Source of the DNA: Nereocystis luetkeana
Taxonomy: Eukaryota; Sar; Phaeophyceae; Laminariales; Laminariaceae
Assembly: GCA_031213475.1 (NCBI GenBank)
Contig: JARUPZ010000002.1
Location: forward strand, 17,166,079-17,230,078
DNA: 64,000 nucleotides
Direction of reading: 5' to 3'
The translations under genes were made by a program, and so were the position numbers. The notes beneath the pieces are model-generated. The model saw nothing but the letters and a program-made list of their open reading frames with translations. It made no database searches and had not been told where the DNA came from. Position 1 is the stretch's first letter. Every line of letters starts with the position of its first letter. This document shows positions 5,615-62,713 of this stretch, one piece after another.

Positions 5615-5734
5615 TATTATGGGGGATCATAGTTAACAGGACCAAATATTGTTAGTAAAAATGGTTAAATATATAGGTTTTCATGTATTTATACCATAGG
5701 TCCTACCAGGTATTAACTATGGTCTCCCGTAATA
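5615..5734 (+). mobile_element. MITE family M1, copy a
   Basis: M1 is a family of about 110 bp with inverted ends TTACGGGGGACCATAGTTAA, flanked by TA, and a conserved core including AGGACCAAATATTGTTAG. This copy lies just after the LINE (AC)n end and carries an extra CCAGGTA at 5706-5712 that other copies lack. Confidence 0.85.
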
Positions 5735-5841
5735 ACAACATCTATCTGCTGCTGATTTACGGAAGGATATTCGGTTTATATGGGAACAGCATCATCTATC
5801 TACGCCATATATATATATATATATATATTGCTCATCCCATT

Positions 5842-6075
5842 TATTATCTTCGCCCATCTTCTTCTCTCTCTCTCCTTCCAACTCGTAACTCAGATCCGGG
5901 GTCGCATAGCAGGCTCTTCCCCCCCCTTCCCGCTGCGGTACGTGCCTTCATTTTTATCGCGAGAAGATTTCAGCCTTTTCTTCCCTCGTCGACTTGCATC
6001 GAATTGTGCCTACCCTCGCTGCAAGGCGCTCTCAACAATTGAATCCTTTTTTTATTTTTATTTTGCAAATAAAGT
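5842..6075 (-). mobile_element. tRNA-derived SINE family S1, 5'-truncated
   Basis: The sequence is nearly identical to the body of the complete SINE at 34180-34530, including the block ending AATAAAGTCAAT, but the tRNA-like head is missing. A (TA)n run lies on its 3' side. Confidence 0.75.
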
Positions 6076-6228
6076 CAATTGTACGATGGGAATGGCAGGC
6101 TTACTGCACTAACAACTAACTACTGCTGCTGATTTACGGAAGGATACTCGGTTTATATGGGGACAGCATCATCTATCTACGCTATATTGTCGGAAGGCTA
6201 GTATAATAATATGGCGTGGGGACGGAGC

Positions 6229-6440
6229 TTGGATGCATCTTAGGAGAACGAAGTGAGAAGGAAGAAGCAAGGACAGAGAATGGAGTAGACAAGCCGAAAG
6301 TTGGCACAGAAGGGAGGTAGACTTGGTGCATATATATGGGTTTCCTTTTGTTTCCGAGGTTTTCTTCTTTCTGGAAAGTTATGACTGATCAATGTTGAAG
6401 ATCATGCTGCATATTGTCGGATGGCAAGGGAAATAATAAT
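6229..6440 (+). repeat. AAT-tailed repeat, copy 1
   Basis: The family has a conserved 3' block (CCGAGGTTTTCTTC ... CACATTGTCGGATGGCA) followed by (AAT)n. Copies also lie at about 9985, 12780, 19703 and 23815, with a partial one at 23700. The constant 3' end with a variable AAT tail suggests retroposition. No coding part is visible. Confidence 0.7.
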
Positions 6441-6480
6441 AAGAATGAAGCATCTTTGTGTCGTAGTTTTGTGACCACAG

Positions 6481-8398: not shown

Positions 8399-9540
8399 TT
8401 GCATTGCCCACTGTGCTGTGCTTACTGCGTACGTGGCAACGTAGTATCTCTGTGGCGTAGCTTTGTTACCACAGAACTTGAATCTCTTCTAAGATTGAAG
8501 AATCGGCACGGACTCTGGTTGTGCTGGATGTCGACGGGTAGAAAGAACGGTTTAATGTGAAGAACACACACACACGGACACTGGTTGTGCTGGGTCTCGA
8601 CGGATAGAAAGTGTTTTCGTTCTCTCGTTTTTTCTCTCTTTCATAGAATGTTTATGTCGTGCCACTATGATGACACACGGCATTGCATGGTCTATACTCT
8701 GCTTGTTGCATAACAATATTAATTGTTTGGTATGGTACCTCTGTGTCGTAGTTTTGTGACCACGGAGCTGGTATCTCTATACCAGGTACAGAGTACAGGG
8801 ATGAAGAATCGGCACGGACACTGTGGTTGTACTGGATGTCGACAGGTAGAAATAACGAGAGAACACACACCCACATGCAGCATTATAACGCCTATAATCT
8901 GTGGAGTGGTGCATGTCGCGGAACCCCAATAACAATCATACGAAAAAAAATGGACTGCAAATCGTACTGGATACGACACGCACGACAAACGAACAACATT
9001 CTAGCATGCGTCGAAAGAAAGAAGAAACTTCGCAAGAAAGGAAAACAAAGAAAAAAACCTCCTATATATTAGAGATGATACTTGTCAGTAATACTTGTCA
9101 GTAGCCATCATATTAGCTTTGTGACCACAGAACTTGTATCTCTTCTAGGGTTGGAGAATCGGCACGGACACTGGTTGTGCTGGATGTCGACGGGTAGAAA
9201 GAACGGTTTAATGTGAAGAACACACACACATATTCGTTATTCGATTACACTCACGTCATGTGGCGTGGTTGGATGACGAGAACCTGCTCTGCTCGTTTGG
9301 TATTGTCTGACGCCAAGGGGCTATAGGCATAGTTGACGAACGCAGGGCGGAGACGGCAGTCTGTGTGTGTGTGTTCTTCACATTGAACCGTTCTTTCTAC
9401 CCGTCGACACCCAGCACAACCAGTGTCCGTGCCGATTCTTCAATCCTAGAGGAGATAAAAGTTCTGTCACAAATCACAAAGCTACGCCACAGAGATACTA
9501 CGTTGCCACGTATGCAGTAAGCACAGCAGTGGGCATTTTT
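8399..9540. repeat. Cluster of LINE 3'-tail fragments
   Basis: Pieces of the LINE tail are joined here: plus-strand pieces at about 8399-8575, 8576-8640, 8641-8885, 9107-9232 and 9240-9365, and a minus-strand piece at 9366-9540. Each keeps the block with GGCACGGACACTGGTTGTGC, and several end in (AC)n. This fits repeated insertion into earlier tails. No gene seen. Confidence 0.7.
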
Positions 9541-10862: not shown

Positions 10863-11030
10863 TCATCACGTCATCTGGTACCCTGGTATACATTTACGCG
10901 TTCTATGAAGAGATACAACAGACAGTTTCAATAACTAAATTTCATGTTGGATCTACGAAAGAAAACACACACCACATCAGAAGAAGTAGTAATATAGTGT
11001 AAGCCCGCCGTATCGACACGTGTTGATCGT
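10863..11030. other. Unassigned repeat remnant
   Basis: The first ~70 bases are a copy of sequence also present at about 11395-11455. The two copies differ by the extra CCCTGGTA at 10881-10888. The rest shows nothing recognisable. Confidence 0.4.
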
Positions 11031-14549: not shown

Positions 14550-15004
14550 TTAATAATTTGTTTTTCATAATCCTATACCTGGTATACTATATATACCTGG
14601 TAATATTTTGGGAAGGAGTGGAAAGTACCAATTAGTTAGGTCGTTTTCAATTTGTTTTAGTCGCGTGTGCAATGCCCATGTCATCATGCTGGATACGACA
14701 GGCACGATATACACATTCTATGCGTACTCTTACCTCAAGAGTCGAGTGGTTATATATACCCTGGTATTTAATAAAAACAAAAAAAACGTCAGCTGTGAGT
14801 TCAACCGATCGGCAGATCGATCGATACTCAGCTTTGCAAGCTGCGTGAACAGTTCGCGCGTTTTCCATTATTTCCCTAGCGATTGACTACTGGCCGGTGA
14901 CTCCCCTGGATGCTACCAGGGTGGACGAGACGATAATACTCGTACCATTTCGTACACTGAAACAGCAGATCGACATGCGAAGGTCGGGGTACACAATATT
15001 TGTG

Positions 15005-15312: not shown

Positions 15313-15427
15313 TAATACGGGGGACCATAGTTAATAGCACCTACCAGTATGGTATACATAAAACCTTTGTATTAAACCATTTTTACTAACATTATTTGGT
15401 CCTATTAACTACGGTCCCCCAAAATAT
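15313..15427 (-). mobile_element. MITE M1, copy c
   Basis: Full-length M1 in reverse orientation. It carries an extra CCAGTA at 15344-15349, between bases contiguous in other copies. Confidence 0.8.
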
Positions 15428-17715: not shown

Positions 17716-17848
17716 CATTAACATCAATGCATGCATATAGTACTCTGTACCAGGTATGCGTTATTTTTACGTTTCAATGAATCACTGATTTCGCCCTTCG
17801 ACAATGCATCGTACGTATATGTATTCCACACATTCCAACTCGATTTTT

Positions 17849-22047: not shown

Positions 22048-23759
22048 CTAAGGGGGGGCGGCGGGCGGGCGGGCGGGCGGGCGGATGGGGGGGGGGGGGG
22101 GGGGGGGATGGGTGGGTGAGTGTGTGGGCGGGTGATGTTGCGGGCGAGCATTGAAACGGAAGCTTCGTGGTTCAGGCTTAGATATGGAACTGGGCTCACT
22201 CGTGATGGTGCCCATGACGTTGTGCGCGCAACCAAGCTCCCGATATCGGTATCCGGTCGCGATGCTCGAGATATAGTGCAGATTAATTTCACGGCCTGGG
22301 TACCACAGGGCCGATTTGAACAGAGCGATGCCCCCTTCCTTTTTGTTATCAAAAATACTAACGGCACACTCATCCTCCACAGAGGCAAATTCTAGCGTCC
22401 TCGTTTCCTGAAGAAAAAACAAACAAACTCGAGTTGATGGTTTCCTCTAAAAGACCCCTCCGTCTCGTAACGGATACGCGGCCAACGGTCGAATGACTAA
22501 GATACACAACCAACCAGGACCCCCCCCCCCCCCCTCCCCTGTCGACAGAACAGACGTGGCTGGTGCTGATTGAGCGTTTGTTGTGCTAGCGACTGAGAAC
22601 GTAGATGGGTTGTATTGCTATGGAGTCACAGAACAGCCCCTCACAGGCGGACAACGCCTCCCAAGTAATACGTCATCCTTTCCCGTGTTCTATTCCTAGG
22701 GCAGAACCTGCCTTCCTGGGCAATACCACAACACTCATCATACCAGGTATGGCATACCATCCTCTGCTGGACGGGACTATATAAGGATCGTTTACCACTG
22801 ACATGAATACAAAGCGGCCCTTGAATTTCCGTGCATGAGGCACTGCTGTAGTTACCCTTTGTTGATGTTGATTGGCTAGCAAGTGGCTGGTGTAGGATAC
22901 CAGAGAGAGAGGCCGAGTGCCTGAACCGCGGTTAGGTTGGCTCGGCGATATAATTACGGCGTGGCACTCGAAGGGTCATGGGTCATGGGACCCCGATTGC
23001 CGGTGGTCGGCGGTGAGACTTTCCCAATAATTTGAAACCGTCACTCCCTGAAGTACAAACAAACCGACATCATACTCTTACGGCCAAGAATCAGTGTGCT
23101 ACGGCTGCATGGGTGAGACTCATCGAACCTTTTGTACAACTAACTGCTGTACTATTACGGGGGACCATAGTTAATGGGACCAATTATTGTTAGTAAAAAT
23201 GGTTCAATATATAGGTTTTTATGTATGCCATAGGTCCTATTAACTATGGTCCCCCGTAATAGAGCAGTGTTACAATAGTGCTGCTGTCACAGCTTACAAC
23301 AGACACCTGGTACCTGCCAGGTACAGCATACGACGGTACGCTACAGCAGTGGCAGCAGGATCAACCGAGTTGCCTCTAAGGTACTCTACCGTTTGGTGCA
23401 CTATTACGGGGGACCATAGTTAATAGGACCTATGGTACACATAAAAACCTATATATGTATCCATTTTTACTAACAATATTTGGTCCTATTAACTATAGCC
23501 CCCCGTAATACTACTGGCAGCATCCTACTACTTACTGCTCTTATGCATGCAGCACACGAGCCGCTACTTGTCCTTGGTCGTGTGGAACACTTCTGCGCAA
23601 GCAATGTTGCTCCAGCAATGACTTGAGAGTGATGGTTCTGCTTCGGTGGAGAAGTACCAATCGCCGACACACTCTTGTTGTATACCAGGTAACTAACTGG
23701 ATATGATTTACGATGTACGTTAGAACAACACTACACATTGTCGGATGGCAGACAACATG

Positions 23760-23958: not shown

Positions 23959-26900
23959 TACAGTTGTAGACTTGTGAGTTGTGAGTGGGGAAATCCCCAG
24001 CTACGATATTTTTAACCCTTTTAAGGCTGCAGTCCCGTTTTGGGGACAAACTACTTGGACTTTGACTGGTTGAACGGGACTGTGGTTCTAAAGGGGCCAA
24101 GTTACAGACAAAACAAACATTTATTTGCAGACGAAACAAACAATCTGCTGCTTGCTGCGTACTGCAAAAATTATTAGGTTGCGGACGGAAGAAACACTTA
24201 CGCAGCCGGGATCGCGGGGCCGGTGTCGGGTTAGTCCTGTGCGCGATGACCTGGCAGAGCTTGTGGTCAAGCTTTGGCCGCTTCACGAAGTGATCGTACC
24301 TTTTAATCGGTCGTTTTAAACAAGCAGGCGAGCAAGCAAACAATCAAGCAATCAAGCAAACAAGCAAACAAACGAGCGACAAGCAAGCAAACAAGCAAAC
24401 GAGCAATCGAGCATAAAATAACACGCAAGAATTGACAAGTAGGAAGCAGCAAGAAGCTGTCGGTGGGGGGGACGTTGTTGTTGTTGTTGCCGTTGTTGTT
24501 CTCACGTTAACTCATCGGCAAAAGTCTAGTCCGCGGTCACAAGACAGGCCCCAAAGAACTCTGGAGGTGGAACATTACCCCAGGGGAAAAAAGGTACAGA
24601 TACAAATATTGCGCAGCTTGCAAAGCTGAGTATCAACTATTTAATCAGTCGAAGCCACAGCTGATGTACTTCATAATTCTACAAAATACAAAATACAAAG
24701 CAGTACGATACGCATCATTGCTGACGCACACCCCACACCTCAAGCAAGAAAAAATGTAAAAAGAGTCAAATCATTCCAAAGGAAAAAGGAAAGGAGAAAA
24801 AAAAAAGGAGAGGGGAGAAGATAAAAAGGCAGGGAAGCATGACAATGCGTGCAATAGGATGCACAAGAGCATGCCCATGCGAAAAATACGCAAGCGAGCA
24901 CACAGACTTGCGCACGTACTCGCAGGAAAGCAGGCAAACAGACTGGGGGCGGGCGGGGGGGAGTGGCGACCGGAATAAGCGAAACCGAACAAAAGTTCAG
25001 TCCATCAACAGGGGGAGCTAGCTATGAATACGCACGCGCGTTCAAGATAAGCAACAACAACACATAACGAAGTAAGTACGAGGCGGGAGAGAAAAAGAGA
25101 GAAAATTGAGAACCAAAGAAGAGGAATAAACTATCACGGGGGACCATAGTTACTAGGACCTACGGCACACACAAAAACCTACATGTTTCGCTATTTTTAC
25201 TAGCAATATTTGGTCCTATTTACTGCGGTCCCCCGAAATAAAAAGAAGGATATAAGGTACTACTACTGTAGGTGCGGTTTAGCGCTTCTGAGTGGGCACT
25301 GATTGTTGCCTGCTTTTCACAACGAGCGGGACCGACGATACACAGGCTTGGTACCAGGCACATATATATGTACGTAGAAACGTGCTACTAATTCTATATG
25401 GGTATACCGTTTTTCGGCGAAAACAAATCCGACTGCTCGGGGTTCCTCAACCCTTGTAGGGCAGACTGCAGTCCCGTTTTAGGGACAAACCACTAAAATT
25501 GTAGGTGGTTTGCCCTAAAGGGGTTGACCCAATGTCGTAGAAATACCATCAGCGTTTAAAACTATGGTTCGCGATGAACCCACCTATAGGTTCACCGGGT
25601 TGCCTTTTCTTTTCATTTTCTTAAAAATCAGTTTTTGGGTACTCCTACTGCAGGTTTTGAGGTATATATATATATAGCTTCCATACTATAATCGAACCAG
25701 GAGCATCGATCGGGAGATATTCGGCACACCCCCGTCTATCGTGACGTGCATCTGTACAGTACTTGGCGAAGCCGAGGGTAATGCGGCCTGCCTTTATCTT
25801 GCAACCTTGCGATGCGCTCCCGAGTTGCGTTTGGGGGGCTAACGCCCTCACCAACACATTGTCAAGGATGGGCGCGAGTGATACCGTAGCGACGGCACCA
25901 AGCCCGAAGCAGGAGCGGGCGGAGGGGGCGACTGATCTAAATCGCGATGGAGATATTTGGGTGGGTGGGGTGGGGGGTGGGGGGTGGGGGGGTGGGGGGG
26001 AGGGCGTACTCGTAAGTTGTTTGCCTTAGCATTTTGACCATTGGCCACGCATCCCTTTCCAGACGGGGCACCGCTCCTACTCCTGATAGAGACACCTCCA
26101 ACACTCGGGCGTTCTTTGCGTTGTTTTCCCTATGTTGCGTAGTTCTTTTTTTACATATCTTGTCGGAGGGGGCTATGAATACCCGGTGAGCCCCGGTCCA
26201 AAATGTGATTGGCTCGTACAAGTACAACCTTTACGTAACTCTGCGAAAACTCTACTTACATACCTGGTATATATAGAGAGATCCTGGGTGTGTAGGCTGC
26301 GCAACGTAATGCATACGCATAGCGTCAACAAGGCACTGCCTGCCATAGATGTGTAATAATATGAAAGTAACCCTCTTTTCATTTTCGTTATGTTTGTCAT
26401 ACAGCCACAGCAACAACATGTAGTGTTTCACTCTCTTCCTGTGCCCCCCACCCCCGTCCGCCGCCGGCCTCGTTCAAGTGTGATGTTGTTTTGGTCCCTT
26501 GCCTCTCTCCTCCCTTGTGGTTTCATGTCATACGTCTCGACCATACGTCTCGAAAACTTTGTGATGTGGTCCCTGAACCCGCTCCTGGCTCGCTTCGGCC
26601 ATGACTAAACATATACCTGGTACCAGGTATTCAATACTGATGCACAGCTGGAACAAAAGAACGAGGTGCGGGCTTCTCCCACACCCAAGTGCAACTTCAA
26701 CCAGGCTCGCCCTATATATGTCCACCCCCCCCCCCCCCCCCGCCTACCCCCCACCCCAACCACGCCTCCTCCACTAAAGTTCAAAACCACTGCGCAAACC
26801 CCATTTTCCCACCCGTTCATAATCTTCCACATTTTTCCCGGGCTGCACAGATCTATCTGAGACGGATGGGCGGGCGGGTGGGTGGGTAAAGCGGGGCGCC

Positions 26901-29900
26901 AGCAAAGATAACCATTTCCAGTGGCTACTCACCAGATTCCGACCTCGATCTCGTGCGTGGGGATTTCCGGGTTGTAGACTAGAATAACGCCATCAGCGTC
27001 CTTCATGACGGCCGGCCAGCACGCCTCATACCTATTTCAATGTCGACAGGTTGACCCGAGGGCATTTATGGCGTTGGCATATATATTGTATATGAAATGA
27101 TGATGATTGTACGATGATTGTGTGCTGAGGATTTTATTATGGTGATTTTGTGATGTTGGCATCGGGATATCAGCTGAAAACGGGGTGGGGTGGGGGCGGC
27201 GAGAGGTGACACGAGTCGTTTGTTCAGCTTATGCACTCACTCCCTCGACGTTTGTGGTGACGTTATATGTTGGCCGGAACTGAGGGGGGGGGGCGTACTC
27301 ATCGGTTGCTTGCCTTAGCCTTTAGGACATTGACAACGCATTCCTTTCGAGATTGAGCGCGGGGGGGGGGGTACTCATTTGTTGCTTGCCTCAGTCATAT
27401 GGCCATTGACCACGCATCCCTTTTGACACAGGGGAGGGGGGGGGGGGGGGTGTACTCATGCCATGCATGGACGTAGTCGTATGACCATAGACCCTCGCAC
27501 CCCTAAATTGTGGGGGGGGGATGCACGTAGGGTTTTCACCGACCAGGCAGATATTGCCTGCACAAAGCGCGAAGCGGAATATGAGATATTGGGCGAGTCG
27601 CGTGAAGGGTATGCTGCATCCTTCAAGAACCACCTGTGAGGCAGACTAGCAATGGATGACAGCTTCGATTGTTCATTTGCCTTTTCTGGCGTGCCGTTTC
27701 CAGAGACAGCAATGGGAGTACTATTCAACTCCCTCCTGGGTGCCTTGCCATAAACACTACCGTGATACGATAGTTTCCCTTGTTGTGCGAAGTCAAGGTT
27801 CTCCTCCCCGCACAGATCTAACTCGATCGCCAGCCGCGGCGAACGCAAAAAAAAAAACGGTACGTATTCGTACCCTGGTTGTCTTTAGCCCACGGAGTGA
27901 GAGGCGTGTTTTCCGCGTCGTCGCCAACCCAACCTATATCTCTCTCTATATATAGGGGGGGGAAGGAGTACTATTTTGTTGTCTGCTTCAGTCATTTGAC
28001 CATTGACCACGCATGCCTTTCGAGACGGAGCGGGGTGTGTGTGTGATACGAGTCTTTTGTTCAGCTTCGGCACTCTGAAGATCACTCGTTGTTGCCAATG
28101 TACGATATTAGGGGTGTGCTAGGAGTATAAAGTAGATACGCTTCCGTGTGTGTTTTCCGTTTCCCAACAGGTCTTACCTGGTGTATACCAGATGCCTGGA
28201 ATATATGTATGCGCCGGTGTGTGGGTTGTCCGTTTGCCAGCATGTCGTGTGGCCATGCACCATTATGTGTGCGTCATGTGCCAATATGCGATGCAAACTC
28301 CGGTGCTTAGAATACGAAAGTAGGTACGAGTACGTGTCGTATTTAGCTTAGGCCTATCCACATCATCCACGGTGTCTATCTATATCTATCTATGTATATA
28401 TGGGACTACACGCCAATAACATGTGCTCTCAGGATGCTCAATTTCGGTCTGCGTAAACCAGTAGCACCAGGACCCGAGGTGCTGGCTGTACAGTCTGAAT
28501 GCACCGTAACTGTTGTAGTACTATGCATAGATAGTGCAATACTCTGTGCCATTTTGACCGGGAAGATAGACTCCGTTTGAAATTCAAATCAGAGTCCAAA
28601 ACGTTGCTTATATTGCCGGTCAGAGCGGATACATGCACAGCGGCAGTAGTAGGGGCCTGCCAACAAGAAAACGCCTATTCATAATGTGAGAACCATCGTT
28701 GAACAACCTTGAGCATATCCTATTGTATAGGATTTCGCGTAGCGATCGCCGTTGAACACGCAATCGATACTGGCATCTCTTAGCGCCCCCCCAAAAGTGA
28801 TTCTTGAGCTGTAAATCGCTCTGACCGGGAATACAAGCAACTTCGGCACTCTGATAGGTATATCAAACGGGTCTTATATTCTCAATCAGGGTGGTATCCA
28901 GTAGTAGTCGGAATGCAGTACTCTCTACGTAGAGTAGTGATAATAATAGTGCTCTGCATTACCGTACTGTAGTGCAGTCCACTCTCTCCGGAAATGTCAG
29001 GAACCGTCGACTTTCATACTTACTTATGATTGAACCATCCCTATATTCTCGGACAGAGTGGTACTCTGTAACGCAGCAGCAATATACGGGTAAACTACTA
29101 CATACAGTTTTATCACAAATAAATCGTGAAGACGGGCTTTTCTCGGTGTCAGGCCGTCAGGCCATGCCAGGGAGCTCAAAGAGCTACGGTGATATATGAT
29201 GCCAGGTACCTGGTAGACGGTAACGACTCGTCCAGAGCACAGGGCACTGAATAATAACCAGGAGAACAATAGTTTTAGGCTGGATTTCTTGTTGGAGAAT
29301 GGGTGCGTGCTGCACTAACTTCAGTTCAACGACTCCCGATTTTCTTAGTTTGTTGTATGTCTCAGCCTACCTTTCTTATTGCTCGTTTCCATATTATTTG
29401 GTGTCCTGTACTGCTTAGATGTATTGCGGGGGACCATAGTAAATAGGACCAAATATTGTCGGTAAAAATAGGTATATACGTACAGGATTTTTGTGTGTAC
29501 CGTAGGCCCTATATATACTATGGTCCCCCGCAAGAGTTGCAGTACATACAACGTAGCTCGGGAACCACAAAAGTGTGAAAGTTGCAAGTCACGCGTATAT
29601 ATGTACAATTACTATTACTATGCCTGCCACCCGACAATATGCAGCGTTGTTCCCAAAAAGACTGAGGAACAGTAAGTAAGTGAAGAACTCTCCAGAACAA
29701 AAGCGCAGCAGCATCATACGACAAATCAAAACCGATGTGACGCACATGAAGACTACCACAACCATCATCCCTCCATCTCACCCACCAAAAAACGACCACT
29801 CCCCTCCTTAACACCTTTAGAACCGCAGTCCCGTTTCGGGGACAAACTACTTGAAATTTGAGTGGTTTGTCCCCAAAGCGGGACTGACTGCGGTTCTAAG

Positions 29901-38745: not shown

Positions 38746-39103
38746 AGCAACGCGTGTATTTCGAATGTCGTTAACTCGTTCGCAACTGCAAAAATGATTG
38801 TACACTGTTTTCGAGTGTAGGTTGTTCCAAAAAAACGGTCGTGGGGTGCAGTTCTGAATGAAGCGTTCGTGATCGTCATACCACACTGCATATTCTGGTG
38901 CTCAAGAGCGCGAACAGATACCAGGTATACCGGTACGAAGGGTATGCGGGTGTCATTCCTCTTCGGCGCTTGTGAGGACGATGGCGGGCGACAAGCGATG
39001 CCTGATCAAGTTTTCACTCACAACGGTATGAGAGGAGTTGTCTGACTTGACGTGGATATACAGCGACTGAGTGAGAGATTGAGTGAGTCATCTGCACCGC
39101 GGA

Positions 39104-41942: not shown

Positions 41943-44900
41943 TCACGCGCCACAGATGGTCGTGGTGTCGCTCTTGATGAGGCGTTCGCCCAACCACGGC
42001 TTGGTGTAGACCACTACGGTGTGCTCCTCCTGCAAGAAAAACAGCAGCAGAAAAATAGGCCATGACACGAAGGGCGTGTTAAGATATACTTAGTATGATA
42101 CACCGTAACCACTGAGCTAGAGACCCCAGATTGTATTTTTTGGGTAGAGACACGAGAGCATCATAACCGCTGAGCCAGATACCCCCCGTTGCATTTATTT
42201 TTGGCAGAGATACACCCTACGACTGCCCACTGCCAGAGATAGACCATAACCACTAAGCTAGTATGAGCTGGGCCAGCCAAGGTGCTGCCAAGTCGGTTGA
42301 TTGTCCACGCCCCGCTCACTACTACTTATTTGGATGCGATTTTTTTACACGGTGTTGATCATGCACCAACCCACGGATGGAAAGCGAGCCCTTTTTTGTT
42401 GTTGGAGAGATAAGACCGACACAAAGATCCGGAAAAATACAAAAGCGACCCCACCTTGTCTGAAAAAATAAAAAAGGGCTTGCGTTCCGTTTTTATGTCG
42501 AGCAAATACGACGTTAAATTTTCAGGTCGAAACTCACAAATTTGAACGGGGCATCGCAGAAAAACAAAAAATGATCGTAATTACTTGTGTTATGTATGGA
42601 AATCGTGTTTTGGCGATATATCATGCTGGGTGGCGAATTGGGCACTGACGCTAATATCGGTCTTCTCGTAGGGTATTCAGCTAAGTCTTCACCAATTTTC
42701 GCCTTGATCGGGAAAGACGATTTTACTACGAATTTTGTGTTGAAAAGTTGGTGTTTTTGAGTTTTCGCCTATGAAATATGCTGCTGTATCTCGTCGACAT
42801 CGAGTCAGTCGCATTGTAAACATGTCTCATTTTTACCAGGTACACACTTTTTTTTGCATATGCAATTTCGTGTCAGGGTTAGTGCCTCCAAACTTCAAGT
42901 CCTGATTCGCAGTGGTTCACGAGATACGACCTGCGGATGGTTTGCCCATTTTTTGGCTGGCCCAGCTCGTAGTGAGCTTTTGTCAGAGACGCCATAACCC
43001 CTGAGAGCAAGAGACCCCCGATTGGGCTTTTTGGATTGAGATACACCATGACCACTGAGCCAGAGACCCTCGACCGTACTTTTTTTGTCGGAGATGCACC
43101 GCAATCACTGAGAGCCGAAGACCCCAGGTTTATCCTTTCTGGTTATAGAGGTATGTCATAACCACGTCAGCGCTGATTGCTACCTCAGTGCCTATGGTGC
43201 ACTTATATTTTATAGTCTTACTTTTTTCTACAGGGTGCGCACCATAACCAGACACACAAGCGCAATCAACACGCATGAAGAACTGGTGGTGGTGGTGGTG
43301 GTGGTGGTGGCGGCGGCGCGTAGCATGCGATGGACAAGCAACACACAAAGCTTGCGTCGCGCCCTACGGTTGAGAGCGCCCATCAACCCCACCCACGGGT
43401 TACAACTTCCCCCACATTTACAGAAAAAACATGCTCGGAATAAGAGTGTGATAATTAATGCACTATTATAGTAAGACGGGCCATATGATAAGGGAGGACA
43501 CGAGGAAGCCAACGGTAAGAGCGCGGGCATATTCTTTCCTAGAGCGCTGCGACGCTCGCTCCACTCTACAACCAGCCTAGAGGACTCGCTGGATTTTGGG
43601 CTGTGGCCTTGACGAGTACGGCCTCGGTATGCTGTCCGTATTGTATCGAAGTACCTTGCTTTCACATACTGCTCTAAAGCTCCGAATGAACGGGAAACGC
43701 TCGTACCCCAACCGCGGAGAAGAGCCACGGTGGAAACCCGTCGTGTGTAGCTGCTATATACGCCACGAACGGTTGACACCGGGCTGAGAACACGAAATAT
43801 ACAACCAACATAGTGCCTCGACGTACGCGCAGCTGCCGAACGGCCGTCACCAGAATCCAGAAAACGTCTGTGCGAAAATACTTCTAGGAACACATCGCCG
43901 CCTCGATAGCGCGTGCAAACTGTCAGCACTTGCAGCACGGCCCGAGCGTTTTCGCGCGGGTTCACCTGACAGACGCCGTCGCCGTCGTTTCCCTTGTATT
44001 GCAACGTGTACATCAGCCCCGCCACCACCTGGACTTCTGCTTTGAAGAGCACGAAGTGAAGCTCGGAGCTCCTCGCCGTCAAGCTCTTTGTCGCGAACTT
44101 ATCATAGAAAACGACACCGGTCGTGGAGGGGAAGGGACGCCGCGGTAGGGCGGCGGCGACGGTGGCGGTGGCGGCGGCGGCGGTGGGTGCGGGCGGGCGC
44201 AGGAGTTATTACAGAGGGGTCATGAGCCTAAATATTACCTACCAGGGTAGTATACAACTTCAGCCAGACATTTCGGCAGCCCTAAGCAGCAGTTTATGTG
44301 CTTGCGGAACGCCGTACCTGGTGTACCTTCTGCGGGTCCGTCGATCACCACACGGATTCGAGGTGAACTGCTTGCGGAACGCCGTACCTGGTGTACCTTC
44401 TGCGGGTCCGTCGATCACCACACGGATTCGAGGTGAACGGAACATATAACTACATACCGGTATGTATGTATGTATGTATGTATGTATGTATGTATGTATG
44501 TATGTATGTATGTATGTATGTATGTATGTATGTATGTATGTATGTATGTATGTATGTATGTATGTATGTATGTATGTATGTATGTATGTATGTATGTATG
44601 TATGTATGTATGTATGTATGTATGTATGTATGTATGTATGTATGTATGTATGTATGTATGTATGTATGTATGTATGTATGTATGTATGTATGTATGTATG
44701 TATGTATGTATGTATGTATGTATGTATGTATGTATGTATGTATGTATGTATGTATGTATGTATGTATGTATGTATGTATGCATGTAGACCTCTAGAAAAC
44801 AAAGGCGGTCAGAGTATCAGCGCCAGTCGTCGGTACTCGAGTCGCTCATTCGCGAGTACCAGCCATTTTTGAAGTACTCAGTACCACGAGTACCAAAAGC

Positions 44901-45450: not shown

Positions 45451-46383
45451 GCCTTTCCAGTCGGAGAGCGAACCAGGTGCAGGAGGGCTTGGGGGGTCTT
45501 GGTACACGATGGACTGACAGCACCCGCTCCCCTCGGCTGCTGTTTAGAAGACCTGGTATAGCAGTATGACACAACAGCAAGGGTAGGGTTCGAGGAATAT
45601 ATACGTAGGAGGCGAGCGATCTACACATATTTGGTACTCGTACACAGCAGTGCGTTGTTCTGAACTGCTGATGGCAGCTATGGGCTCTAGATTTTACTGC
45701 TGTCTGAGCCCACAGGATGACAGCGTTGCTCGTGCTTGATGTACGAAGAGCAGTGCCATCAGCGGTACCTGGTATCATGTACCAGGTACCTGGTAATACG
45801 GCAATGCAACGCCATATGGTGGTTGAACCTGTCGATGCACGTAAGAACTGATTTCCGCGGCGGTACCCGAGGGGAGAGGCGAGAGCGAGCGAGTAAAACG
45901 AGCACCCTTGGGCGCTACACCGTACGCGAAGGCATCACGGGAAGGCAAAACGCCATGAGACATCGACATCGGCATAGGTAGCACTGCTGTATACGAAGAG
46001 AGCTGAACCACTGTACGAACTACTTGCGCTGCAGGTCTGCCCTTTCACAGGGTAGTACCTGCTGCTCCTCCTCTGTACTACGCGAAGAGATTTTAATCGT
46101 AGGCTCACCTTGGTCGCCGAAATTATATATATATATATTGCTGCGCGGCACCAGGTTCGGGCTGATTTCTTGTGAGTGAAGCTCCAAGCTCCTACTCCCC
46201 TTCTTCTATCGTTTTCTCCTCGCGGCACTGTCCTTCCCGAAACTTGTGCTATCACATTTCGGGAATGTCTCAATGTCTCCGATGGTTTTATATGACCTGG
46301 AAGGATTTTCCATTCGGGAAGCTAAAATTCTAGCTGGAGGGTGGCACCAGCCACCGGCACCTCAACACTTGCCACCACTCGCC
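45451..46383. promoter_or_regulatory. Shared divergent promoter region (cystatin / lysine-rich gene)
   Basis: 933 bases separate two start codons on opposite strands. It contains three TACCWGGTA motifs (45766-45795) and a (TA)n run at 46124-46138. No other gene is seen, so both promoters must lie here unless there are unseen 5' exons. Confidence 0.4.
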
Positions 46384-49300
46384 ATGGAGGACTCTAAGCT
46401 CCAGCGATTGCACGACACGCTCAAGAAACTTGCACCCAAAGGGAATCACGTGAGTACGGCACACTTATCTTTCTCGCACCCGCTACTCACGAGCGTTGGA
46501 TCAGGCTCATCGCCAGCGAAGCGGTGCAATTTCCTCCACACGTCTCACTACGAGTACGAGTCGTAGCTCGGACACGTACATATCATGCATAGCTCAGCAG
46601 CAGCATCAGCTTCAGCAGATACACCATGCGCGAGAGCGACGACGCAGTTGTGCAACCGGCGGAAGTATTGCGAGCATTCAGGAAATACCCCTTGATGGTG
46701 AAGGGGTGGCTGGCTGTCTAAACCACGGACGGCCTTGGGCCTCGATTGGCACGGTACTCCACAATTCCTACGGGTGCTGTTGACTACCTGGTATTAGTAT
46801 AATACGATACCACCGCCGTACGACTGCTGCTGCTGTACGTATACGAACCGGGTATACCCGTGGTCTGGCATTCCTTGTAACCGGCTGAAGTAACTCATGT
46901 TTCATGATGCGACAACTGTCCTTCCTACTGTTGTGCACTGTCGATGAGTACTCGCGTACGGTGTCATACTGGTGTTATTGCGTCTGCTGTTATATACAAC
47001 AGCAGCACAAGTAGTAGATAGAGAGCTACCAGGACAGCTGTACATGCCCCTACTGGCCCTCTGATCCGCAACTGCACGTGATATGGAAGTACGCGACTTA
47101 CCAAATACCGGCATCCGGTATCCTACTGGCATGCTACCGGAAGATGGATCGAGACTGGGTGGGCAGTGACCTGACATTCGGCTCACAGCAGTACTGATGT
47201 ACATACTGCTGTAGTACCAGTACCAGCTACAACAGCACGAACACTCTTTTTCGACTTTTGACCGTTCGGCCTCTCTCGATGCTTCTTCCGCACTCAGGGC
47301 GGTCTGGGCAGCGCGGGGCTGGTGAGAGGCGGCTTCAAGCAAAAGGAAAACGACCTCCCAAAGAATGGTGAGTGAGGCGTCTATGATACACTGCTGCTGC
47401 TTATGGCCACGGGTGATTTTATCCACTCCCCACCCCCGTGTTTCCGAGTTCCTCTATTATGTTCACGTATATGCTGTTTTTGCCATGTACAGCAGTAGTA
47501 AACCCCGACGCGTTTGGGCCTTCGGCTGGTTCATGCCTCGACAGAGAGCGGGTGCATGTTTCACCCCAAGCAGCTTGTGACTGTCTCCACGGTAGATGGG
47601 CCGTCTGCTTTTGCTCAACATAGGTCTACTACTGAATGCACACCCCGACTCTCTGAGGCGCTGCAGAGGTCGAAGTTTGGTCGGAATTTCGGGGTGCACG
47701 GAGTGAGACTAAAAACAACCCCCACCTTAAGGTTTGCAGTGTACCTGGATGGCTGGCGTGTGTGTGCTGCGCCTTTCGTATCCAGTCGTACGATGACACG
47801 ACATTGCGTTGTATACACCCCATGCTGCATTACTGTGTAGCACCTCCGTGTCGTGGTTTTTGCGAGCACGGCGTGTCTGTCTCTCTAGGATCAAGAATCG
47901 GCACGGACACTGGTTGTGCAGGATGTCGACGGGTAAAAAGGAAGTAACGGTTTGATGCGAAAACCCACACAGTTCACTTGCGTACGGTACAGCTACGACA
48001 GGCCCTCATACGCACCAACCACAGCCCGCGATATCAAGGCACGCTCCTGATGGAGTGTGTGAGGGCATCGAGTGCCAGACATCAGTCGTAGGCAGCCAGA
48101 AATGGACTAGTGAGGTGTTTTCGTGAGATCGAAGTCTCTAGCCAGCAACGCAAAACAAACCTAAAACCGATAAATATTCCCCACGAAATCCCCCCACAAC
48201 ATTCAGACAGCGCAGTAGGTGACAACGAATGAGGTTAGTTTTTACATCAACAAGGATAGCTCAGCTCTGGGGTTCGCGGCATTGAGTCCCTCTCAATCTG
48301 TCCCAAGGTTTTCGTATTCGTTGAATTGCCGATAGGCGAGTTGGTGTGGGTTCTGCGATGTCAAGCCTTTTATTTTTTAGTACTCCAGTCCCGTTTTGGG
48401 GGACAGACTACCTGGGATTTGAGTGGTTTGTCCCTAAAACGGGACTGCAGCCCTAAAAGGGTTAATTTGTGTATCAGGTTTGTCGATATTTTTGTCGTAG
48501 CGACATCTTGTGAAACGTACATGTTTGGACAGAGTGCGATGAAATATCCGTCGATGCGGACACCCTTTGAGTTACGCTCGACCCCCGCCCCCCCCCCCGC
48601 CGCCCCTTCCCCCAATAATACAGGCGAACACCGTTCGTTGCCAGGCCATCTACTGTCAATCGTAGGTAAACACGCGGTTGCAGTCGCGCCACCAAATTGC
48701 TCCTGATTTCGCCCACCCAGCGACGGTTCAATGTTCAATGTTTTGGTGTCGATCGTAGGCAGACACGCCTTTGCGAATCGTGCGCAACACACGCTTTTGT
48801 AATCGTGCAACCATTGCTTCTGATTTCATTTTCTCCATCCGGCGACCGTTCAATGTTGAATGTATTGCTGTTGACCGTACGTGCTGCTGTAGTAGCGGCA
48901 AACATGCTTTTTTGCAATCGCGCGATAATTGCTCCCGATTGTTCCCGTCCAACGATGATTCTGTTGCCAACGACCCCACCCCCACCCCCACCCCCACGCC
49001 CTTGGCAGGCCTCTACTCGTACTTTGTGAAGCCCGGGCACTTCAAGACCACCTTCGCCGACAGCGACGACAGCGATAGCGACGACGACGAGGACGACGAC
49101 AGCGGGGACTCGAAAAAATCGAAGAAAGACAAGAAAAAGGAGAGGAAGAAGGAGAAGAAGGAGAAGAAAGCCGACGAGAAGCTGAAGCGGCGACAAAAGA
49201 AAGACGCGGAGAAGGCGGAAAAAAAAGCTGGGAAAAAGGTCGCAAAGGAGACGCCGCCAGCGCCGCCGCCGACGCCGACGACGCCGAGCAAGGGCGAGGG

Positions 49301-52180: not shown

Positions 52181-54258
52181 TGATGATCAAGGGAAAAAAA
52201 TATGAAAAGAGGTACGAGTACGTCATTTGGAGAAGGTCAAAGGCCTTCATCCGGATTCCGCGTGTGACGCCTGCCGCTGCACCCGGCCGCCGCCCCCCCA
52301 ATTGCCCGTCAGAAGCCCCTCCCCCCATAAGCCGGCCGAAGGTCGCCCGTCCAGTTCAACGCATGTAACAAAAAATCGCGTGAGTTTTTTTTGGTGGCAG
52401 AGCCGAACGCCGTTTCCCCGCATCCCCGAGATCACACCAACGGTAAAACGCCTGCGCACATTCAACCAAACCTCATACGCTGAAGGCGGACACCCATTTC
52501 CAACTGCACCAACGCTTTGGGGACAAATCACTCGGAAATAGAGTACCATACTGATTGTAGTATTGCAAAGGGTTAGGCTTCAAACGGGAGAAGCGCGCAG
52601 CCCCCCCCCCCCCGCCACAAATGGAAGCACGCCTCCGTCATGCCGTATCGCGTTGCACTCGTGACCCAACTGACCACATACAAGAATCGACAAAAAAAGT
52701 TGGCGTCAACCATTCGACGCGCTTCATGTCACCACGTACAGTAGTACGTAGTAGCAGTGGAAACAAGGTCACGCCAGGTGTTCGCGGCCGCACGTAGTGC
52801 GCGTATCCGAGGAGCACGCGGCGAGTAAATTTATCGGGGGAAAAAATGCGCTCGTCACGCATTTCCTGGATCAAGCTACTACTACCAACATCAAAAGTTG
52901 TGCTGTAAGCTTGCCGTCAAGACGGCAGAAACCGGCAACGTTTCATACCGCGACAAAGGTCGACGCAACACTGAAAAAAAAACGCCCTCTCTTCCTCGCC
53001 GCTTCGACGTACGCACACAAGCAAAAGCGGAGCAGCGTGACGTCGCTCTTCAGGTTCAGGCAGGGGTTGTCAACAGTGTTACCTTGAGACCTCCCGATAA
53101 CTGCCGCGCGACCGACCAATAAAGAGCTGGAGTGGAGCGCAATATATTTCGTTCTCCTAACGAGGGTGTCGCGCGGCTGTACACTTACAAAATTTCATCG
53201 TTTTATTGTTCGCTCCGCTGGCGTGAAGATAAGAAACCCGTTCCTATCCCACCCTCTCCCCCCCCCCCCCCCCCCCCCCCCCTTCATGGTATGAGTACAC
53301 CCTCCCCCCGCCCCCTTCAGCACCAACCGACAACCACCATGTCGGCTACTTCCGCCCTCCCCCCCCCGCGGCAAAATAAGGAATGCGTTAAGGCAGCCTA
53401 GCTACAGGGCGGTGGGAACGAGCACATTCGCTGACGTCTCTCCTCTTCCGACAAGCGGGCTCCCGTGGTTTCACATCAAAGCCATGCAACAGCAACTCCA
53501 AACACTACCGCCACCACCACCACCACCACCACTGACACCGCCACCACCGTCTCCGCCACCTCCACCCTCCGACCCTTCATCTCCCCCCTCCCCTCTATAG
53601 TGGCTAGCCATTTCGACCTCCTTTCGGGAAAACCCCCCAAAAGCTACCGACGGCCCCACAACCGACGAGCGCCCCCCACCGCGCCCGCACGAAGCTTCGG
53701 CTCGAGTGGTGCACGAGCGCTATCTACCCACACACACGCCGCAATGAGTTACGCGGCGCGACTTCCTCATTTAAAGCCGCCGTACACACTGACCACACTG
53801 CCGGGCTGGACCATATACGCCGTTTTTTTGTTGTGAACGCCTCTGGTGAGCGTTTTCGAGGACGCGTGAACGCAAGCGGCGGAACCAGGGAAAAGGAGGA
53901 CGAGGAGGGGGAAGGGGGGGGGGGGGGGTAAGGGGGTGCATGGAAAGGGGAAGATATCTGGGGGGGGGGGGGGGTTGTATATGCTGGAACGGGTCAAGGA
54001 ATTGGCACACAGAAGACGAAAATGCCCGTCATCGGGGACAGGCGGTACGAAACAAGAGTACCAGGTAAGCACTTTTTGACTGAGACTCTATGAGGCCCTG
54101 CTCGAAATACCCGCACGGCAAAGACAACCATGCAGCCCAGCCTTCCTTCCTTCCTTCCTTCCGGGTCTCGCGCCCACGAAGCGCCTCTCCCGCACGAACA
54201 AACAACAAACAATGGCATCACCAGTTTTGATATGATATGATGGTGCCTATCGGTATCA
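52181..54258. other. No gene recognised; homopolymer-rich
   Basis: Contains a truncated M2 half near 52508-52577, a C-run of about 28 at 53254-53282, (CCA)n at 53508-53532 and G-runs at 53917-53928 and 53960-53973. Open frames are proline-, threonine- or glycine-rich by composition. Confidence 0.4.
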
Positions 54259-57134: not shown

Positions 57135-57455
57135 CAGGTTAGAAGTAAGGCGTGCCCTATCCCATGTTTTTAAAATAAGGCGTTCTCTCCCGTACCTGGT
57201 CTATGTTAAAATAAGCCATGCCCTATCCCCTATCCCCTACCTGGCAAATATTTCAAGAAGGCATGCCCTATCCCCCACCAGGTATATACTAAAATAAGGC
57301 ATGCCCTATCCCCCATTCCCTACCATATACCAGGTATTAAACTAAGGCATGCCCAATCCCCCATCCCCTATATAATAAAATAAGGCATGCCCTTATCCCC
57401 TATCCCCCACCAGGTACATATTTAATGAGGCATGCCCCTATCCCCTAGAGTTTAA
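57135..57455. repeat. Minisatellite of ~45 bp units
   Basis: Seven to eight units share AAAATAAGGCATGCCCTATC, CCC runs and ACCAGGTATAT, which brings a TACCWGGTA-like motif into many units. Confidence 0.85.
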
Positions 57456-57459: not shown

Positions 57460-57985
57460 CCGTGCAAACGAGCGAACCCGCCTCGCCGCTGGAATACTAG
57501 AACAGTCATTTTTAGACACCCGACCGAGGCGCACAAGACATGGACAGACCGCATACAGGGTCTTGCCCTCTTTTCCGGAGACACACCAAATCATGCTCCA
57601 GTTGTCCTTCAAAAGACAACGTCTTCAACCCGTCAGCGACGGCGCAGAGGGCCTTGCCCGAAGACAAGTTCGAACTGTAAATGGGCGGTCCTTCAAAAAG
57701 ACAAATTCAACGACTGTCACAGGTCAGACGAAACATTTCCAAGGCGTATTCGAAGCACCCGTATCACGTGTCACGCTCGTTGGAAGGGGGGAGTGAGGGA
57801 GGGAGAGAGGCGTGCTCCTACAAGTAAGTAAGTCATCAGACATCGCTGACACACAAGTTTGTTGCATCACAACAAAAAACCACAAGGAGGTACCTGGTAC
57901 ACCAATACTTCATACGTATAAATAGCGTGGAACGGGTCACCCCCCACCCCCCCCCCCCCCTCCAACCGCCACCTCGATCTGTATC
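57460..57985. other. No gene recognised
   Basis: One 45-codon minus-strand frame near 57560-57680 (GKALCAVADGLKTLSF) is open, but lacks splice evidence linking it to the phosphatase. A C-run lies at 57948-57960. Confidence 0.3.
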
Positions 57986-59189: not shown

Positions 59190-59460
59190 TCCTTCGATGT
59201 ATATATACACGGGGTGTATGTCGTGCCTGTCTTACCCAGCATGATCACGTGGCATTGCTTTGTCTACAGCAGTGCTTACTGCATACCAGGTACCTGGTAC
59301 GGAACAATGTAGCATCTCTGTGGCGCTGTTCTGTGTTTTGTCACCACAGAGCGTGTTCGTAACTCTCTATTAATAGGGTTAAATAATCGGCACGGACACT
59401 GGTTGTGCAGGATGCCGACAGGGAGAAAAAACGGATTAATGTGAAGAACACACACAGCGA
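59190..59460 (+). mobile_element. LINE tail fragment with double TACCWGGTA insertion
   Basis: Colinear with other tails from TATGTCGTGCCTGTC to AAGAACACACACA, interrupted at 59284-59299 by two overlapping TACCWGGTA motifs. Confidence 0.8.
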
Positions 59461-59748: not shown

Positions 59749-60515
59749 AGCAAAAAAACGAGCTAAATAAACCTCGCCGCAAGATCTAATTAGAGTACGA
59801 AATGGGAACCAAAGGGAAATAACAGGCAAACCGAAGCACTTTAAAAAACACCCTTCAGGTAGCCGCAGCAGTGTGTGGTACGTGTAGCATGACCAGGTCC
59901 TACCTACTACCAGGTATTTAATAGTCGGTCTGGTACCTTGCTACCCTCTTTGCCGTTTCCGTCCTGCGTTCGTCAACCATGTCCCACCCCCGGAGGAGAT
60001 GCATCAGACTATACGAAGTAAGCGAAGCAGGCTCGACACCCACCCACGCGACAAAACTCCTGTCATGAGAACAAGAAGAGAGAAACAATACCAGGTAAAC
60101 AATAAGAAAATCACGGCTGCTTCGAAGACAGTCACGGTGCCTGTATTAGTTCTAGCGAGCCCTTCAGCCGACTTCGAGACAATTCCTGCGGCATCGGCGT
60201 ACGACATGCCCCATACAGCCCTTCGCACGCATGCCAACGGCTCCTGCTCCTCTGTTCCGACTACTCCAGCATCAGTGCGTTGAACCAAATCCCTGACGAT
60301 GGCTTCGTCTTTGCCGAAGCGTGCCAGAGCGACGTGTAACGCACCAGCGAAGAACACGCTGAACACAGCAGTAACGGTGATAGCACGCAGCCTTGCCGCA
60401 ACCCCTGCGTGACATCAAACCATTCCGAGTGCTCGTCGTCATCCGTACGCACGCAAACCCGCATGCGCTCGTTGTTGTCAGCATCTTGGTTGGTACGCCG
60501 GAGCGTGTGAGTACC

Positions 60516-60678
60516 AAAGATGTCAGGAGACAGCATTTTCACCCCTTGACAGACAGCAACGTTTGCCTCGACATGCCTAAACTGACACCAAACTACTAGG
60601 TTCTAGTGTGGAACACTCGGCCTTGCACCCTTGACAGCGCATATTTTGCCTTGCTTGACATGTCTCCTGACATCTATG
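60516..60678. mobile_element. MITE family M4 with 9-bp target duplication
   Basis: 163 bp with inverted ends AAAGATGTCAGGAGACA and its near complement, flanked by perfect GTGAGTACC on both sides (60507-60515 and 60679-60687). The intact LINE has a single copy of the equivalent site. A 9-bp duplication is typical of Mutator-like transposases. Confidence 0.85.
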
Positions 60679-61678
60679 GTGAGTACCGCCCGCCACAGCA
60701 ACTCACGGTCGACAGAGTCGTACGCGTTCTGCAGATCGATGGATCACATGCACAGGGGGATTTTACTCTGTTGTCCGAGCTCTTGCAACCGGCGCAAGAC
60801 GAACAACATATCGATCGTCGATCGTGCGGGGCGGAAGTCGCACTAACTGCTCCTCCGGGAGTAACCCCTCGGATCTCGCAGCAGTGGTTTGCCAAAGGCG
60901 GGACGCGACGATTTTCAAGAACACTTTGCCTGCGTGGGCATCGAGCGAAATCCCTCTGTCCTTGTTGCAATCAGTTGCAATCGGTTCGTTCCTTCTTTTC
61001 ATGAAATATCTTTAATGATCGCACATTTCCATTGCTGAGGAACTTTTCCCGTCACGCAAGCGTGGACAAGGATGTTGTGAAAGCACTGCTGGGCGAATGC
61101 GGGGTGGCCGATTTTTAGGACTTCGGCCGGGAGGCCATCTGGCCCAACAGCTTTCCAATTCAACATGCCCATAAACTTCCTCCGTCATCTCGTCCATGGA
61201 TGGTTCATCTCCAGAGCGGCAGTTTAAGCGGTCGCGGTGGCAAGAGGTCGATGATCGTGGGATCGAGTTTCAGCGGTTTCGTGTTCAGGAGTTTGTGGTG
61301 GAACCCCGACCGTCGTTCACGACTTCGCACCATAACCCCGCAACAGCGTGCCATCCGCGTCCCTAATGAATTGCTTGCTCTTCGCTTTAATCCCTTGCAA
61401 TCCCGTACTCTTCAGGTGCTTGTAGAATCTCTTCCGGTCGTTCATTCGCCAGGTGTCGTTCGGTTTCGGCGACGACTTCTTCCAAATACGCATGCAGTCC
61501 TGAGGCAATCACCTCCTGCAGGTTCGCACACGAAGATCTCAGTGTCTTCCACGCGGTTCTATCCCGGGGGTGGGCACGCAAGAATTGTCGTCCATCCTCC
61601 CTCGCTGCCCATGCTATTATGAATGCGGCCAAGGTTTCGGCAGACTCACACCATCCACACCGCGTGGTACCAGGTATG

Positions 61679-61872
61679 TATTACGGGGGTCCATAGTTAA
61701 TAGGACCAAATATTGTTACTAGAAATAGTTAAATATATAGATTTTCATGTATACCACAGGTCCTATTAACCCTTTTAGAACCGCAGTCCCGTTTTGGGGA
61801 CAAACCACTCAAACTTCAAGTACTTTCGCCTTCAAAACGGGACTGCGGTTCTAAGGGTGGACCCCCGTAATA
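61679..61872 (+). mobile_element. MITE M1, copy l, carrying a nested M2
   Basis: M1 ends (TTACGGGGGTCCATAGTTAA and GGACCCCCGTAATA) are separated by a complete M2 at about 61768-61857, inserted in the right arm of M1. The whole lies in the decayed LINE. Confidence 0.88.
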
Positions 61873-62403
61873 GTACCTCTTTTTCGACCTCATCAATAAC
61901 AGCCGTGGTGAAAAACTCCACCATGCCAGGTGTATTACGTACCAGGGTACTGGATAAGCTGGTTGAGAGTGGAAACGGCTTTTGCGACTACTCGTTGACG
62001 ACAGTTTTCATCGGACACGAAAAGCTGCCTGTCGAACTCTCGGTGTTTTTCGGGGTTTTCGTATTATTAATAGCGTGTTGGGTGCAAAATGACAACTGAG
62101 TCAGACTTTTGATATACACAATCGTGGTCTGAGTCGACCTTAGCCGGGGGGGGGAAGGAAGTGGGACGACTTTTTGACAATCATGTACTCTATCTAGGCC
62201 GATGGGCTTGACGGGTAAGGATGTCGTCGATCCGCGCACGGTCATTCGGGCTAGTGCCGTTGTGTGCATCCGAGATCCCACCCTTGCGCGTGTTGAAAAA
62301 CGTGTTGGTGAGAGCTACCTTGTAACATACAAATTGGTGGCGAATGACAGAAGTCGTTTGCCACTATCGTTACGAACATCACGTCCGTATGCTCCAAGCA
62401 CTC

Positions 62404-62713
62404 TACTTTCAGTACGTATGTGTGTGTTCTTCACATTATTAAACCGTTCTTTCTACCCGTCGACATCCAGCACAACCAGTGTCCGTGCCGATTCTTCAAT
62501 CCTAGAAGAGATACAAGTTCTGTGGTCACAAAGCTACGCCACAGAGATACTACGTTGCCACGTACCTGGTATGCAGTAAGCACAGCAGTGGGCAATGCAA
62601 TGCCACGTCATCATACTGGATACGACAGGCACGACATACACATTCTATGAAAAAGAGAAACGAAAGGAAACAAACGAAAAGAAAACAAAAAACAAAGAAG
62701 ACAAATCGAAGCA
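62404..62713 (-). mobile_element. LINE 3' tail inserted in LINE ORF
   Basis: Starts with (GT)n-like TATGTGTGTGTTC, the complement of the (AC)n terminus, and runs through the tail to a truncation at AAGACAAATCGAA. It carries a CCTGGTA insertion at 62565-62571. Confidence 0.8.

Follow-up and report, generated by a model that had tools for sequence, protein, structure and literature searches.

The genome of the brown alga Nereocystis luetkeana carries in great excess a 9-base motif, TACCWGGTA (TACCAGGTA or TACCTGGTA), which arises in repeat copies by gain at TA and is probably an excision footprint, left by a cut-and-paste transposon that targets TA and has ends 5'-CCAGG(G). We analyzed the motif in a 64,000-nucleotide stretch of assembly GCA_031213475.1 (contig JARUPZ010000002.1, here C2, positions 17,166,079 to 17,230,078 of the forward strand; hereafter the window), in positions 1 to 200000 of contig C1, and by searches of the whole assembly (465,085,209 bases in 1,987 contigs).

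Abundance of TACCWGGTA in the window and genome

The window holds exactly 35 copies of TACCWGGTA, the number that an earlier note on this DNA had given as approximate, while dinucleotide shuffles yield a mean of 0.45 and a maximum of 3, and an order-3 Markov model of the repeat-masked sequence predicts 0.61. CCWGG is by far the most frequent core among TA-N5-TA words in the window, the runners-up GTTAA (9) and GGACC (7) being words from an abundant repeat, M1. The genome-wide count, which the earlier note had proposed beforehand as a test against background, is 182,395 (one per 2.55 kb), roughly 100 times that of the reversed word (1,744). A 324,616-base sample, comprising the window, C1:1-200000 (L010-L029) and ten transposase loci that are not a random choice, contains 115 copies against 2.28 expected.

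Gain of the motif at TA sites

To score polarity, we collapsed the 9-base motif to TA and recorded whether paralogues matched the collapsed (empty) or the full (filled) form. The window and C1:1-200000 together contain 94 motif sites, of which 29 were dropped by a simple-repeat and end filter; 16 of the 65 kept had an alignable paralogue: 11 had only empty copies, 3 had both forms and 2 only filled ones, giving an empty copy at 14 of 16 sites. Control TA-N5-TA sites (604, 79 of them with a paralogue) had an empty copy in just 12 of 79 cases (6 only empty, 6 both, 67 only filled), a difference with a nominal p of 4e-8. A second run, with stricter identity and cores of 2 to 8 bases, found 11 CCWGG sites with an empty copy and 1 filled-only, compared with 4 and 70 for other 5-base cores (p = 6e-10), and at least two of those four empty control sites adjoin a CCWGG motif. 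TTAA cores likewise show gain in this run (4 empty, 2 filled-only). Empty copies read TA where filled copies read TA...TA, the duplication expected of a Tc1/mariner insertion, and at the sites examined the duplicated bases are TA only. Polarity, too, had been set beforehand as a test, and the motif proves to be gained, not lost.

Most of the individual insertions that the earlier note had listed withstand alignment. M1 copies read GGTCCTATTAAC where the copy at 5704..5712 has TACCAGGTA (11 clean empty copies, none filled), the M1 copy at 23149..23266 (+ strand, ends TTACGGGGGACCATAG...) serving as the empty reference. The tail of a long interspersed nuclear element (LINE) has TACCTGGTA at 62563..62571, with four clean empty copies; the tails at 9504 (CACGTATGCAG), 8430 (CACGTACGCAG) and 10725 (CACGTAAGCAG) lack it. 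Two further LINE tail copies, near 300 and 5460, have TG in place of TA (CACGTGTGCAG), a weak point of this comparison. The 6-bp variant TACCCTGGTA at 10879..10888 is matched by plain TA in the copy at 11419, and the 4-bp version TACCAGTA is present inside an M1 copy at 15342..15349. The motif also stands in series as described: two footprints at 59284..59299 in a LINE tail (the related site being single at 62563 and empty at 9504) and three at 45766..45795, with TCATG separating the first and second. The case of the decayed LINE at 61940..61949 stands in part: the 6-bp variant TACCAGGGTA is there, but the corresponding position of the intact LINE lacks a TA, which leaves no clear empty site and gain not demonstrated. 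The window is eukaryotic nuclear DNA. Its intact LINE open reading frame (ORF) lies at 960-4712; its closest matches reach up to 80%, and those with names are Ectocarpus records at 36-53% identity and two bacterial records.

Proposed excision mechanism and variant footprints

We hypothesize that a transposon whose ends begin 5'-CCAGG(G) inserts at TA and duplicates it. On excision, the transposase would make a staggered cut, at the very tip on one strand and 5 (in a minority of cases 6) nucleotides within the element on the other, leaving 3' overhangs TACCAGG on both donor ends. These would anneal via CC/GG with an A·A mismatch and be sealed by end joining, and repair of the mismatch to A or T would give TACCAGGTA or TACCTGGTA. 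The W center would thus stem from the A·A mismatch between annealed overhangs, as in the Sleeping Beauty footprint TACWGTA. In a five-base register the single mismatch predicts CCAGG or CCTGG; in a six-base register two mismatches predict CCAGGG, CCCTGG, CCATGG or CCCGGG, and never CCTGGG. Trimming of the mismatch would leave TACCGGTA, and microhomology with the flank would join CCAGG to GG. One overhang would in this way account for TACCAGGGTA, TACCATGGTA, TACCCGGGTA and TACCGGTA as well as the canonical motif.

Counts of variant cores between TAs in the 324,616-base sample are in line with this scheme. CCAGGG and its complement CCCTGG occur 10 times (0.86 expected), CCCGGG 5 times (0.33 expected) and CCATGG 4 times (0.36 expected), and the core that is not predicted, CCTGGG/CCCAGG, occurs once (0.51 expected). 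Among shorter cores, CCGG (TACCGGTA) is found 21 times against 4.0 expected, CCAG 29 against 12.8 and CCTG 13 against 9.4; CCACG is found 8 times against 3.3. The CCWGG core and the spectrum of 4-, 5- and 6-bp forms fit a footprint of end nucleotides, and we infer that these are the ends of the element.

MITE M1 as a genomic trap

M1 is an abundant miniature inverted-repeat transposable element (MITE) of about 110 bp whose ends read TA followed by TTACGGGGGACCATAG; it has the inverted repeats TTACGGGGGACCATAGTTAATAGGACC and seems to duplicate TA, and copies in the window lie at 23149-23266, 5613-5734, 20052-20162, 58517-58623 and elsewhere. In several copies an inner TA site holds a CCWGG footprint; the empty form of such a site is ATAGTTAATAGGACC and the canonical footprint ATAGTTAATACCWGGTAGGACC. 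A genome-wide trap for ATAGTTAATACCWGG and a following non-T base matched 57 places, against 8 for its reversed control. Counted by eye, these comprise 20 CCAGGA and 2 CCTGGA, 25 CCAGGG and 2 CCTGGG, and 2 CCAGGC and 6 CCTGGC.

We read 40 of the 57 sites, selected by class (14 of 22 in the A class, 23 of 27 in the G class and 3 of 8 in the C class). Among the first 20, 11 join CCWGG to ACC over the flanking GG with loss of the right TA (10 with A, 1 with T), and 4, of which one belongs to the A class, are canonical but have an altered TA; the other five are a six-bp form, a one-G overlap, a 12-bp CCTGGGTCCTGG, a changed copy and one site outside M1. The second 20 contain 14 cases of CCAGGG plus TA and, by eye, 3 more with a second footprint or changed flank (L071, L073, L082), the rest being the 7-bp form CCTGGGG (L072), an odd join (L084) and a whole element (L081). 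Six-bp cases therefore number 18 for CCAGGG and 0 for CCTGGG (15 classed by script, 3 by eye), a comparison that separates these two forms only, as the trap pattern cannot catch CCCTGG. Relative to the C class, the A and G classes are biased toward A (p = 0.001 and 0.0001), which suggests CCAGG as the end sequence.

The whole element at L081, seen also at L085, at first resembled the donor but was rejected: its 8-bp duplication GTTAATAC and ends CAGGGCTTTTCGCGGG (CAGGGCTTTTCGCGGGTC) mark it as a hAT-like MITE, and its match to the trap is a coincidence. At L085 (C22:6705800-6709900) this MITE is 470 bp long, lies within an M1 copy, and has 8-bp duplications and internal GACCCG repeats.

Target preference and possible growth in series

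The sequence logo of 190 flanks (12 of 202 that begin with a further CCWGGTA being excluded) is symmetric and essentially limited to eight bases. A pyrimidine stands beside the TA in 151 of the 190, and a further TA lies at +6/+7 in 51, compared with about 5.6% TA overall. Split by core, TA at +6 accompanies 29% of CCWGG sites, 14% of those with the four-base core CCRG, and 5-10% of those with TTAA, CGAG, CWG, CCTCG or CCAAG.

Insertion would thus favor a TA with an adjacent pyrimidine and a second TA 7 bp off. A footprint itself places a TA 7 bp from a TA, the preferred spacing, and so makes a better target, by which footprints could grow in series. To this weak extent the suggestion that the motif is a self-propagating palindrome has merit, and in no stronger sense.

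Comparison with known transposon systems

Stagger length differs among other Tc1/mariner members, and the Tc1-like element Minos leaves the footprint TACGAGTA, which resembles ours in combining a TA duplication with end nucleotides (four in Minos) and differs in its shorter overhang and other sequence. TACGAGTA is itself dispersed and in excess in this genome (57 against 13.8 expected in a 264-kb sample; in the window at 28325, 46549 and 52213, and also in L010-L029), an excess that looks like a Minos-type scar.

In Sleeping Beauty, cleavage takes place three nucleotides within the element and the 3' overhangs give rise to the footprint, a 3-nt stagger being stated for both Sleeping Beauty and mariner (PMC7827188); its consensus footprints are TACAGTA/TACTGTA (PMC4378557), and those of other mariners can be diverse and non-canonical (PMC3770610). 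As far as these papers describe it, the likeness to Sleeping Beauty extends to TA on both sides, an odd-length center of end nucleotides with A/T in the middle, and formation by end joining (PMC7827188, PMC4378557). The algal motif is unlike it in retaining five or six end nucleotides rather than three, in numbering hundreds of thousands in one genome, and in that its element was not found. TACCWGGTA thus appears to work like a Tc1/mariner footprint with a longer overhang, its source being a candidate member of that group. The remark that no system of this exact form had been described was accordingly too strong, because the Sleeping Beauty footprints follow the same logic, although stagger length and genome-wide density do differ. 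The kind of trace, an excision footprint, is already known, and the scale and stagger length are new; among the open-licence PMC papers listed by literature searches, none described such a scar class.

In the brown alga Ectocarpus, 17 Mariner-Tc1 families with 11,912 copies, mostly non-autonomous, are reported (PMC12477816); they are brown-algal TA transposons like the putative donor and possibly its kin, and the words footprint and excision are absent from the main text of that paper. In rice, 94 putative excisions were reported, 8 of them perfect and the others with deletions or filler (PMC4423477). The scars described here are likewise excision traces on a genome scale, but unlike those given for rice they are dominated by one uniform 7-bp product (PMC4423477). 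Other superfamilies fit less well: piggyBac targets TTAA and excises seamlessly, whereas here the target is TA and a 7-bp scar stays; Harbinger makes a 3-bp TNA/ANT duplication, and only TA is duplicated here; and hAT makes an 8-bp target duplication, whereas the gain here is 7 bp at TA.

Searches for the donor and evidence against an excision origin

The autonomous donor that the earlier note had called for was not found. Terminal inverted repeat (TIR) pairs starting with CC yielded no donor within the window and TA-flanked TIR pairs none in ~298 kb, and recurrent words after TACCWGG or after TACCWGGTA revealed none either. Genome searches gave 0 matches to PF13358 (DDE_3) and 0 to PF01359 (Transposase_1), where the control gave none either, and a Pfam scan of two window ORFs had no match.

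Several points weigh against the excision reading. An element that has CCAGG(G) ends and is flanked by TA duplications was not found in ~300 kb, around four transposase loci or at the 40 of 57 M1 trap sites read. Among the three transposase families sought, only pogo-type PF03184 (DDE_1) was found, with 28 matches, none tied to CCAGG ends; ten of these loci were scanned with 1.5-kb flanks and four with 10 kb, and the sole one of the latter four with readable ends starts CAGTGGGG. The 5-nt stagger (6 in a minority) that fits the data is longer than the 3 nt given for Sleeping Beauty and mariner (PMC7827188). The overhang CCAGGG does not account for an excess of TA-CCTCG-TA (15 against 3.2 expected) and TA-CCAAG-TA (10 against 3.4), nor for the 7-bp TA-CCTGGGG-TA (3 against 0.17, with CCAGGGG 0 against 0.29). 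Against CCAGG as the end, one-sided words are more strongly enriched as TACCTGG (71, with 29.0 expected) than as TACCAGG (50, with 38.6 expected), though many of these look like footprints with a changed TA. The 6-bp prediction was made after CCAGGG and CCCGGG had been seen and is hence a consistency check, not a blind test. In the trap, the class against which the A bias was compared is small (8 sites: 2 A and 6 T, plus one exact case with T), L064 and L072 read CCTGGG..., likewise against CCAGG as the end, and the GG joins may have arisen by subsequent deletion at canonical sites. Finally, some of the 14 sites with an empty copy go back to a shared event, and the counts are not all independent: the evidence for 59284 and 59291 comes from a single pair, of which the "empty" member (62563) already carries one footprint, and 61225, 92260 and 94926 on C1 are copies of one filled site.

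Some structures met in these searches are recorded here in their own right. The pogo-like (DDE_1) locus at L042 4551-7164 is ~2.6 kb long with 29-bp identical inverted arms starting GTACAGTGGGGGGCCC. A long inverted repeat at L018 (C1:85248-87398) has many TA-flanked arms and is perhaps a fold-back element. Nested inverted repeats occupy 31680-32480 of the window, with a 380-bp near-palindrome at 31837-32216; the inner stretch looks tRNA-like by eye, and ARAGORN found no tRNA in the window. The C1 stretch (L010-L029) also holds a large array of CCCTAA-type, telomere-like repeats.

Alternative explanations

The strongest competitor, which we nonetheless consider improbable, is that 7-bp units are inserted directly at TA by an abortive transposase or nuclease reaction that adds a constant short duplex and involves no element at all. 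It would explain why no donor was found despite ~180,000 footprints, and target preference requires only an enzyme; the W center, the 4-, 5- and 6-bp forms and the GG-microhomology junctions, however, are what repair of overhangs predicts, and a fixed duplex would not yield CCATGG or CCCGGG. The earlier note's alternative of a double-strand-break repair signature holds as part of the same excision event.

Programmed elimination, in which TA-flanked germline-limited elements are removed in development and the sequenced tissue shows scars only, would likewise match abundant scars and the lack of a donor in the stretches read. We regard it as very unlikely: the scars differ in age, with one-mismatch copies exceeding expectation by ~80 alongside 120 exact copies, and only some repeat copies are scarred, which points to inherited mutations accumulating over time; we also know of no elimination of this kind in brown algae, although no search was aimed at it. 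Still less plausible is a functional site under selection, such as a protein-binding or methylation palindrome. The motif is a perfect, highly enriched palindrome, and ACCWGGT is the SexAI recognition sequence, but where tested the motif is inserted in some copies and missing from their sisters, even among decayed MITEs and LINEs, and it decays by point change. Least credible of all is a motif ancestral in the repeats and lost from the copies that lack it: one C1 repeat (61225, 92260, 94926) does have several filled copies and one empty, but 11 of 16 sites have only empty paralogues, as at M1 5704, and loss would need repeated exact 7-bp deletions.

Against these, excision of a TA-specific element, which the earlier note had listed first with ends CCW..., is well supported, and its ends may be narrowed to CCAGG(G).

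Further motif copies and other possible scars

A motif scan, which assigns no strand, places the remaining footprints in the window. Those reading TACCAGGTA lie at 681..689, 8780..8788, 17748..17756 (with a TA 7 bp off on either side), 22741..22749, 23683..23691, 34859..34867, 35324..35332, 35647..35655, 35841..35849, 38919..38927, 42834..42842, 54059..54067, 57328..57336 (inside a tandem repeat), 59908..59916, 60089..60097 and 61668..61676. Those reading TACCTGGTA lie at 14576..14584, 14594..14602, 26261..26269, 29207..29215, 30837..30845, 31407..31415, 34576..34584, 35346..35354, 46785..46793 and 57891..57899, and two serial footprints (TACCTGGTACCAGGTA) at 26614..26629.

Other TA elements of the genome may leave scars of their own. 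TACWGTA, the form expected from a pogo-like element with CAGTGGGG ends, occurs 77 times against 45 expected in the 264-kb sample. TATTAATA occurs 58 times in ~304 kb (46 against 3.8 expected in the 264-kb sample), in the window at 12703, 14548, 30012, 37480, 59093 and elsewhere by word count; some copies lie in microsatellites, and 4 sites have empty paralogues. It may be the excision scar of M1, given TTA overhangs overlapping by TA. Paralogue alignments (window 38035, 20944, 15500 and others) also show several exact 4-bp tandem duplications, for example ACTGACTG for ACTG, which may represent a further signature of repair or excision.

Outside the alga, a 5.5-Mb Saprospiraceae metagenome-assembled genome with an M1 piece at a contig end contains 60 motifs and 34 reversed words, near the control level. 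The contig concerned (JALZWC010000131.1, L044 1-700) begins with the M1 piece and algal-looking sequence and continues with a bacterial-looking ORF, and is chimeric or contaminated. In viral contigs, the double motif matched 9 stretches (8 without a further copy, 1 with one), the LINE protein matched 11 stretches with 0 confirmed, and the M1 word had 0 matches.

Age and biological significance

Exact copies number 120 in the age count and one-mismatch copies 142, against 62 expected (~80 above), the reversed control giving 53 against 45; this count includes four loci twice (L030-L033 lie within L040-L043), unlike the variant count in the 324,616-base sample. The ratio of exact to one-mismatch copies fits steady accumulation over ~0.25 substitutions per site, or about one scar per 300 substitutions, an order-of-magnitude hand estimate that assumes a constant rate.

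From the footprints we infer a transposon and its cut geometry, and we tentatively entertain, at somewhat less than even odds, that the donor is a TA transposon of low copy number and long persistence, with a cut of 5-6 nt, whose ~180,000 exact scars in 465 Mb would outnumber living copies by orders of magnitude and seed their own series growth. If so, the scars would be a standing mutation class in the lineage. CCAGGG directly after TA offers a search handle for an element with an unusually long stagger. Unlike transposon insertions, excisions as a rule cannot be counted, because their scars are few and varied. A uniform, countable and datable scar would record ~10^5 excisions in one genome, would let excision rate, repair outcome and target choice be measured directly on an evolutionary timescale, and would show a transposon to be a steady source of 7-bp frameshifting insertions.

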